A DNA stretch of 64,000 nucleotides from NCBI RefSeq assembly GCF_000621865.1, contig NZ_JHXE01000008.1:1-64000 (forward strand), read 5' to 3'. The translations under genes and the position numbers were made by a program. The stretch is from Pseudobutyrivibrio sp. MD2005. Lineage in GTDB: Bacteria > Bacillota > Clostridia > Lachnospirales > Lachnospiraceae. Below, piece by piece: positions 1 to 59,121 of the stretch. The notes below the pieces were generated by a model. That model was not told the origin of the DNA. It saw only the letters and a program-made list of their open reading frames with translations, and ran no database searches. Position 1 is the stretch's first letter, and each line of letters begins with the position of its first letter.

Positions 1-350
1 AGCACCGCCTCGTTTCCTTGTACGGTGGTTACTCCTTTCGGAGCGTTTCACACAGACCTCCCTAGGTACCACACGTTTCTTCCTCTCCATCTATCTGCCT
101 CATTTATCATGCATGATTCCGTGTAGTTATTGGGCTTCGACTTGTGATGCAGCCTTACCCTCATGCATAACCTCGTATGAGATTTCTGTACGTCAGACCG
201 GAGATTTGCCCGTGGGTTAGTATGTTCCCCACATCCAGCTTCCTTCAGATTCCACCTCGCGGCGGACACCCTTGCCTTCGGCTATATCCTTCCCACTACC
301 GGGTGGATTCGGGACTTGAACCCGTTAGAAACGTGCGCCGCTAGGCGCAC
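1..350 (-). mobile_element. Group II intron (IIC-like), 5' ribozyme part only
   Basis: On the minus strand the element begins at 350 with GTGCGCC, the expected 5' end of a bacterial group II intron. Within it are blocks I recognise from IIC ribozymes: AAGGGTGTCC (264-273), GGAATCTGAAGGAAGCT (237-253), and further in a GCAGATAGATGGAGAG block (84-99) and GGGAGGTCTG (55-64). Only about 350 nt of the ribozyme (domain I onward) lies in the window; the reverse transcriptase/maturase ORF and 3' end, if present, are beyond base 1. The intron sits 7 nt past a terminator stem, the classic IIC homing position. The family call comes from remembered conserved blocks, not from a covariance search. Confidence 0.85.
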
Positions 351-58060: not shown

Positions 58061-58176
58061 AAACACTATCTCCAAAACAATTAACGCAATATCTAGTGCA
58101 AAATTCTCATACTCTCTCTACATTATGATACCTTTTATATCCCCCGTTTTCAATAATTAAACTCAGTATTCCCATT

Positions 58177-58795
58177 AATTGTTACCATTCACCGCTGCCA
58201 TATAGTGACTGGCCCGCCCTCCCATACTCTGCGGCCCGCCCTTCACACTGGTGTGATTTTGCGAATATTGCTGTTTTTATTATGGGCCAAACTTATGCAT
58301 CACACATGTGTCTTGTTGCGGAATGAACCATTTTGAAAAATGTTTTTTGAGTGGCGGACACTATAGTTTTTTATGTACTTCTCAGGCTAAGGGGACTTGG
58401 TTTCATATTGCGCTTGCTAAGTAACATGACAAAGCAGGTTTTGCATATATAATCACCGTGGCACATTCAACATCGTGTTTCAAGTGACCACTTGCGCTGC
58501 CATCCGTGGCAGCGCATGCTTATATATGCAAAACCTGCTTTTATGTTACTAAGCTCGCTCCAAAATCAACCAAGTTCCCCTCAGTCTAAGAAGTACACTT
58601 TACACTAGGTTTTGTGTCCGCCAATCAAAAACCTTTTTCAAAATTGTACAGGCCTGCAAAAGACACATGTAAATAAAGATGCATAAGTGGCCCATTAGAA
58701 AAACGCAATATTCATGCAATGCACCAGTGTGAAGGGCGGGCCGCAGCATAGGGGAGGGCGGGCCTCTAAAAAACTAAGGTGAATGGTAACAATTA
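58177..58795. repeat. Large imperfect inverted repeat (fold-back element), 619 bp
   Basis: Two arms of about 275 nt (58177-58451 and 58521-58795) are inverted copies with scattered mismatches and small indels, roughly 75-80 percent identical by eye. Ends are TAATTGTTACC and GGTAACAATTA. Matching blocks run the whole length: GGCCCGCCCTCCC, GCGGCCCGCCCTTCACACTGGTG, CATGTGTCTT, TGGCGGACAC and GCAGGTTTTGCATATATA-like sequence at the inner end. The 69-nt centre holds a perfect GCGCTGCC/GGCAGCGC hairpin (58494-58515). No ORF of note. It is richer in GC than its surroundings. It lies between the NlpC gene and the veg terminator. Confidence 0.92.
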
Positions 58796-58802
58796 TATTA
58801 AC

Positions 58803-58832
58803 AAAAGAACCATCGGCTAAGCCGATGGTTCT
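58803..58832 (-). terminator. Terminator of veg
   Basis: AGAACCATCGGC pairs perfectly with GCCGATGGTTCT (12 bp, 3-nt loop), followed on the minus strand by TTTGTTAAT. Confidence 0.85.
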
Positions 58833-58881: not shown

Positions 58882-59121
58882 TTAGCAAAGCTTCATGCGT
58901 ATTTCCTTAGTGATGATATCAGTGTAACTGAATGAAAGTAACTGTGATGGGCTTGTCTCTGTGTCGTCAACTAAGATAGTGAAAACACTTGGGTAAGCTT
59001 CCTGGATAACACCCTGCTGAATGTCAACCTTGTTACGTCCTCTGTCTAACTGAATAACTACTCTACTACCGCACTGCGATCTCACTGAATCGCGTACTTT
59101 GTCAAAATCCTCGCGCTCCAT
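58882..59121 (-). CDS. veg: Veg family protein
   Basis: 79 aa, the typical Veg length. RSQCGSRVVIQLDRGRNKVDIQQGVI and FSYTDIITKEIRM fit the family. In Bacillus subtilis Veg is a very highly expressed small cytoplasmic protein that affects biofilm gene control; the mechanism is not settled. A near-perfect sigma-A promoter lies about 60 nt upstream, consistent with high expression, and a strong terminator follows. Confidence 0.92.
   Translation of the reverse strand: MEREDFDKVRDSVRSQCGSRVVIQLDRGRNKVDIQQGVIQEAYPSVFTILVDDTETSPSQLLSFSYTDIITKEIRMKLC

Follow-up and report, generated by a model that had tools for sequence, protein, structure and literature searches.

The described systems that come closest to the locus treated here are the short MITEs mobilised by IS66-family transposases, the TwoAYGGAY structure that Rfam lists as RF01731, and hairpins whose two arms are proposed to be rewritten as DNA. 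Insertion of IS66-family elements typically leaves an 8-bp target duplication, and the ends of the family begin with GTAA. For stems in general, selection at the RNA level tolerates G-U pairs far more than A-C mismatches. In the literature searched, at the level of titles and abstract openings, no description of TwoAYGGAY as a part of a mobile element was found. The structure is listed in the 2010 discovery table, the part of that source used here, as a probable RNA that is probably not cis-regulatory (PMC2864571), and CsrA binding has been suggested for it in the consulted part of a further paper (PMC4333381). As far as the consulted parts of the respective sources go, DNA-level rewriting has been proposed both for RNA stems (PMC8794818) and for mitochondrial palindromes (PMC6649704).

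Here we describe a long inverted repeat in a stretch of 64,000 nucleotides, which is referred to as the window throughout and which probably belongs to the genus Pseudobutyrivibrio (Lachnospiraceae). We regard it as probable that this repeat is an IS66-type MITE, the hairpin of which is maintained by DNA-level exchange between its arms.

Structure and position of the fold-back

The earlier note on this DNA had described almost the whole gap between an NlpC/P60 gene and veg as one inverted repeat, and the repeat is confirmed within that gap, with a left edge that lies one base further out (58176-58795, 620 nt). When the element is aligned with its own reverse complement, the alignment spans all 620 nt at 73% identity, and the individual pieces of the arms are 73-96% complementary along the fold-back. 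The folding energy of the minus strand is -352.3 kcal/mol, against a mean of -169.5 (sd 4.85) in 20 shuffles (z -37.7), and that of the plus strand is -344.2 kcal/mol, against a mean of -167.2 (sd 6.7), again in 20 shuffles. No ORF of at least 60 aa lies inside the element, which bears out the earlier remark that it encodes no evident protein, and the GC-rich blocks pointed out at the same time are real (they are the outer arms of Table 1). Other details have to be revised. Specifically, the centre is asymmetric, its minus strand being a full-length match to RF01731, and the TA on either side is not supported as the target duplication for which it had been taken, since the recurrent termini start at GTTACC (58181 and 58790). 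The TAATT/AATTA at the edges of the fold-back is a short extension of the palindrome outward.

Table 1. Features of the fold-back element and its neighbours, in positions of the window
Feature	Position	Strand	Remarks
NlpC/P60 gene	56957-58075	minus	frame from ORF list; name from the earlier note
Whole mobile element, 610 bp	58181..58790	- (TwoAYGGAY strand orientation)	ends recur among the copies of the own genome
Left terminal inverted repeat, GTTACCATTCACCGC	58181..58195	+	2 mismatches to GTTACCATTCACAGT
Unpaired internal loop by left terminal repeat	58196..58210	.	sequence type is a marker of core orientation
Left GC-rich outer arm	58211..58253	.	nearly private to the window copy; 93% complementary to 58722-58764
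Left inner arm	58254..58404	.	conserved between copies; pairing imperfect
Tip, TwoAYGGAY structure (RF01731)	58405..58565	-	78.7 bits (gathering score 43); covers model positions 1-168 of 168
Tip hairpin 1	58493..58516	-	loop ACGGAT at 58502-58507
Right inner arm	58566..58721	.	partner of left inner arm
Right GC-rich outer arm	58722..58764	.	partner of 58211-58253
Unpaired internal loop by right terminal repeat	58765..58775	.	
Right terminal inverted repeat, GTTACCATTCACCTT	58776..58790	-	2 mismatches
Terminator-like hairpin of veg	58806..58832	-	adjoins the insertion, outside the element
veg	58882-59121	minus	79 aa; frame from ORF list; name from the earlier note

Relatives without the element have hairpins at the same place as the terminator-like hairpin of veg, as judged by eye. 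Promoter-like sites in and around the element number 4, against 2.4 (sd 1.5) in shuffles, and they include an 11-of-12 match at 58426-58453 of the plus strand. Positions 70-266 (minus strand), close to where the window begins on the left, match the Rfam family group-II-D1D4-3 (RF02001) at 137.5 bits, i.e. a part of a group II intron.

Copies, insertion sites and a candidate helper

The genome to which the window belongs (G000, 3.09 Mb in 26 contigs; hereafter the own genome) contains the element many times over. As a DNA query the element gives at least 87 alignments in at least 40 places, the RF01731 model gives at least 38 matches, and the two kinds of match combined yield at least 46 loci, which were compared together. 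A truncated, one-ended copy (L096, G000:C1 at about 234.3 kb) stands outside these 46. Across the sample, RF01731 was found under strict filters in 29 of 61 genomes, namely in 27 of the 29 that belong to the same genus and in 2 of the 32 others; one member of the genus (G010) is without a match to the model, yet has matches to the DNA of the element. With the element as DNA query, the plasmid and phage collections gave no match.

The two genomes outside the genus are G032, with 20 matches to RF01731, and G036, with 7, of which 16 and 6, respectively, were fetched. Of the 16 elements looked at in G032, 15 have ends that are recognisable but of a different type, 230-235 bp apart; their arms are matched, and among these 15 no target duplication of useful length was found. 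In G036, each of the six tips stands between matched GC-rich arms, which differ from copy to copy. In this sample the association of TwoAYGGAY with repeated hairpins thus extends to three genera, and the IS66 route is shown in the genus of the window only. G036 also has two loci (L328, L329) at which two TwoAYGGAY structures, separated by about 400-460 bp, are oppositely oriented.

The ends of the element are GTTACCATTCAC-like, and many copies terminate in GTTACCATTCACAGT and its reverse complement. Both ends were recognised in 24 of the 46 copies (at most 4 mismatches of 12), including one copy at a contig end (L059) whose ends are misplaced and which was scored as a miss. The 8-bp flanks match at 7-8 of 8 positions in 6 of these 24 copies, compared with 3 of 552 control pairings, in which the left flank of one copy was paired with the right flank of a different one. 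Direct repeats that are exact and exceed 4 bases occur at a length of 8 only (4 copies). No intact duplication is found in 18 of the 24 two-ended copies, and the flanks of the window copy, which match at 5 of 8 positions, do not form one either.

Further copies and empty sites, for both of which the earlier note had proposed a search, were found, the latter in relatives. In L128, L129, L131, L133 and L135, five relatives with closely aligned flanks, the site holds 9-30 bp, against about 630-650 in the own genome, and the element is absent too where less of the flank is aligned (L137, L141 and L148). Seven further relatives carry other DNA at this site, and RF01731 is present in two of the seven loci. 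Members of the same family, with tips opposite to the orientation of the window copy, are found in L155 and L134; L150 and L152 hold elements of 192 bp that share the ends but lack the core; L136 resembles, by eye, a remnant of another subfamily; and L142 and L146 contain unrelated DNA. The 192-bp element, which is without the TwoAYGGAY core, ends in GTTACTATTCACAGT, and this exact end occurs in 20 of the 29 genomes of the genus, frequently in inverted pairs with a spacing of about 177 bp. At the shared sites L072/L244 and L075/L265 the arms are unrelated; judging from their sequences these may be independent insertions, and they were not used as orthologues. At L083 the DNA beyond the terminal repeats forms a further inverted repeat (AATAATTGCCCTCT / AGAGGGGCAATTATT), and it looks as if the hairpin had been extended outward into the flank.

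IS66 transposases were searched for in the genus and their flanks checked for the ends of the element, with one clear case as the result. This is an IS of 2.96 kb in Pseudobutyrivibrio sp. ACV-2 (L204, G028), which has the ends (A/G)TTACTATTCACAGT, the 8-bp duplication CGCATAAA on both sides, a DDE transposase of the IS66 family with 581 aa (PF03050 at 8.3e-18, 65.2 bits, cut-off 23.1) and a 120-aa ORF. At 790-1323 of L204 there is also an ORF of 177 aa on the opposite strand, with no Pfam match. The exact 15-base end of L204 is found at one or both ends of fold-backs in relatives (L165, L179, L182), and the consensus of the ends in the own genome differs from the ends of L204 by one base. L204 is likely, going by these ends, to represent the type of helper that serves the element, as distinct from a demonstrated helper. 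A transposase of the L204 type is intact in one of the 29 genomes of the genus and present as a fragment in another, and was not found in the own genome. The IS66 transposase locus of the own genome (L196) was rejected as a helper, since its 3.9 kb contain no ends that match. The ends of L204 begin with ATTAC/GTTAC and not with the GTAA of the family, and the fold-back is therefore called IS66-type here, with no named IS66 group.

Dispersed copies with recurrent terminal inverted repeats, 8-bp target duplications, no transposase gene of their own, relatives without the element at the same site, and a related autonomous element in a congener with ends that are the same but for one base, all support an option that the earlier note had raised, a large MITE-like element. 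More specifically, the copies very likely form an unusually built family of IS66-type MITEs.

Private arms, flipped cores and pair changes

The core of the element (about 470 bp) is similar across copies, while the GC-rich stem around it is dissimilar. Arm identities were compared in 32 of the 46 loci (7 were incomplete, 6 belonged to another subfamily, and the orientation of L066 was unclear). In these complete copies the outer GC arm has an identity of 0.83 to its partner within the copy, as against 0.58 (5′ arms) and 0.57 (3′ arms) between copies and 0.535 for shuffled sequences, and in 25 of the 32 it is nearer to its own partner than to the arm of any other copy. For the three inner segments the identities are 0.74-0.77 within a copy and 0.77-0.90 between copies, and none of the 32 shows such a preference for its own partner there. 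The copies of one subfamily still have a recognisable arm sequence in common, and they differ by changes that both arms show (e.g. L080 and L082). In copies without a recognisable terminal repeat the outer arms are still paired.

The loop that separates the GC stem from the terminal repeat exists in two sequence types and, according to a simple score, the type found 5′ of the tip points one way in 7 copies and the other way in 9, with 8 unclear. Since the type of loop varies by side, the core sits in both orientations inside its ends. There are also single cases of interest. G006 and G019 share an insertion whose private arms are the same but whose orientation to the flanking genes is opposite (L028, L027), and at a site shared by G003 (L035) and G022 (L042) the outer arms are alike and the inner core and tip come from different subfamilies, as judged by eye; the genomes are drafts, in which mis-assembly is possible for single cases of flipping or core exchange such as these. 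Flipped and exchanged products of this kind would be expected if arms, and also copies, recombined with each other or served as templates in template switching.

Whether the mismatches of the arms are G-U or compensatory had been put forward in the earlier note as a point to check, and in the genus of the window the pairs of the tip switch between Watson-Crick types with no preference for G-U. For the tip, 115 distinct sequences from 22 genomes (126 loci) were used, restricted to pairs with at least two Watson-Crick types in a MAFFT/RNAalifold consensus. They give 2820 Watson-Crick cells, 23 G-U, 24 A-C and 114 other, whereas RNase P RNA, taken through the same steps in 29 genomes (29 of 30 loci used; 56 of the 61 genomes have one above cut-off), gives 1223 Watson-Crick, 70 G-U, 12 A-C and 20 other. 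On the opposite strand RNase P RNA has 37 G-U and 47 A-C, i.e. its preference is gone, as expected, and the tip, with 18 and 14, is still even. Because the copies are related, the counts of pair changes are not independent; with each type of pair counted once per position, the tip has 17 G-U and 15 A-C, compared with 27 and 2 for RNase P RNA of the genus only (13 sequences; Fisher p 0.0005) and 47 and 12 for all RNase P RNA (p 0.015). Over all pairs of the tip there are 46 G-U and 26 A-C, 21 of the G-U being at one loop-closing pair. In the arms, all mismatches taken together comprise 259 G-U and 273 A-C (39 of the 46 loci), and isolated mismatches lean slightly towards G-U, with 18 G-U and 13 A-C outside and 25 and 14 inside (38 of the 46 loci).

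Some of the RNase P RNA genes contain hairpins of their own: those of G003 and G002 (L333, L334) are longer than that of the own genome by a 98-nt near-perfect hairpin, and those of G025 and G006 (L335, L336) by a 77-79-nt hairpin pair at the same place.

Equal numbers of G-U and A-C could equally follow from selection on the transcripts of both strands. In the genus of the window the simplest reading of the counts is that pairs would be rewritten at the DNA level, and DNA-level maintenance of the hairpin is likely. According to the reading favoured here, the element (about 610 bp) is a non-autonomous DNA transposon that inserted between the veg terminator and the NlpC/P60 gene, its probable mover being an IS66-family transposase that acts in trans on GTTACYATTCACAGT-type ends and generates 8-bp target duplications. 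It forms a single long hairpin which, from the outside in, comprises the terminal repeats, an unpaired loop, the near-private GC-rich stem, the imperfect inner arms and the TwoAYGGAY tip. The arms probably interact as DNA, with replication or repair copying one arm from the other, either by template switching or by inter-arm recombination. Such copying would rewrite both arms jointly and would sometimes flip the core in place, and through it the GC-rich stem could be free to drift and yet stay paired. Since the inner arms remain mismatched, inter-arm copying would have to be rarer, or counter-selected, in that part of the element. A host function is not required by this explanation. As a tentative extension, it is possible that TwoAYGGAY is a DNA hairpin rather than an RNA family, with the covariation that earned it the RNA label written by inter-arm copying, and the hairpin perhaps being read as a folded strand.

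Competing explanations and known systems

The alternative that survives best is that the element is the vehicle of a functional TwoAYGGAY RNA (e.g. a sponge for CsrA that presents GGA in its loops), and that selection on this RNA keeps the arms paired. This would suit the full-length match of the tip to RF01731, which is above the threshold (Table 1), and the GGA loop, which 99 of 126 copies carry on top of a paired stem. CsrA is encoded in 28 of the 29 genomes with RF01731, but also in 22 of the 32 genomes without it, and because nearly all RF01731 positives belong to one genus the co-occurrence is uninformative. Two AYGGAY words, moreover, are found in only 2 of the 46 own-genome copies (40 have one, as does the tip of the window copy, and 4 have none); in G025 they are found in 7 of 10 copies. 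The direction of the tip relative to neighbouring genes is random, with 13 own-genome loci with the genes, 15 against, 9 convergent, 5 divergent and 4 unclassified, and the window copy, both neighbours of which are on the strand of the tip, was scored as divergent because veg, at 79 aa, is under the 80-aa floor. Changes of the tip pairs show no G-U preference in the genus of the window, although the six tips of G036, a small set, lean that way (19 G-U to 7 A-C over all pairs); the 16 tips of G032, a small set as well, have 8 G-U and 5 A-C over all pairs. Weighing these points, we consider this explanation unlikely. A rod-like non-coding RNA, one of the options of the earlier note, may likewise be considered: the match of the tip to RF01731 speaks for it, and the pair changes in the genus of the window and the random direction relative to genes speak against it.

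Still less probable, in our view, is that the element serves as a bidirectional stop. In this case the first arm met from either side, being C-rich and G-poor, could load Rho, and copies by stop codons would be kept as terminators. Indeed, 38 of 39 copies have more C than G in the 5′ arm, and 37 have more G than C in the 3′ arm (39 of the 46 loci), and since the element is a palindrome its C-rich first arm holds for both strands. Rho is present, and an arm end lies at most 15 nt from an inward-facing stop codon in 21 of 41 copies (41 of the 46 loci), as a raw count. However, gene avoidance predicts similar positions near stop codons, the window copy sits beyond an existing terminator, and the arms of G036 are without such a composition (5′ C 0.29, G 0.21; 3′ C 0.27, G 0.17; n=2).

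A conserved core could also have landed in the loops of palindromes that the host already had, the private arms then being host sequence, which would account for arms that vary by copy around a core common to all. This is disfavoured, and we see very little chance of it: in the own genome no recognised end pair was found at the short spacing expected for a core-less palindrome, the 8-bp duplications stand outside the arms, and within one subfamily the arms have a common sequence with changes present in both of them. Finally, a lone inverted duplication of old date that has decayed and has no function might explain the lack of an ORF and the imperfect arms, but the earlier note had itself reserved this option for a single-copy element, and the number of copies, next to the recurrent ends, the target duplications and the relatives without the element, excludes it, leaving it a negligible probability.

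Through this element an orphan Rfam family gains a genomic identity in this genus, as the tip of a mobile hairpin. The dozens of copies can act as replicate hairpins for an old question, i.e. how the pairing of a stem is kept while both of its sides change. Covariation that is read without a check on G-U may, in such cases, mislabel a DNA structure as RNA.

Like the MITEs mobilised by IS66 elements, the fold-back is short and non-coding, has terminal inverted repeats and 8-bp duplications, and has in its genus an IS of the IS66 type with almost identical ends; unlike them, it is inverted over its full length, has private GC-rich arms and a structured tip, and its candidate helper is absent from its own genome. 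Its tip matches the whole RF01731 model of Rfam above the gathering score. However, that family is typed as Cis-reg, whereas here it forms the tip of movable repeated hairpins that lie in either direction relative to genes and that, in the own genome, usually have one AYGGAY word and not two. The attC sites of integrons resemble the TwoAYGGAY hairpin, as an analogy only, in that structure is kept while sequence varies, with the possibility that both are read as folded DNA. As far as the consulted parts of the two sources describe them, template-switching hairpins (PMC8794818) and the coding palindromes of Nematomorpha mitochondria (PMC6649704) are like the element in having arms that co-vary and stay complementary; what sets the element apart from both is that it exists as dozens of dispersed mobile copies, in which the outer stem has been almost wholly replaced while the core has stayed alike.
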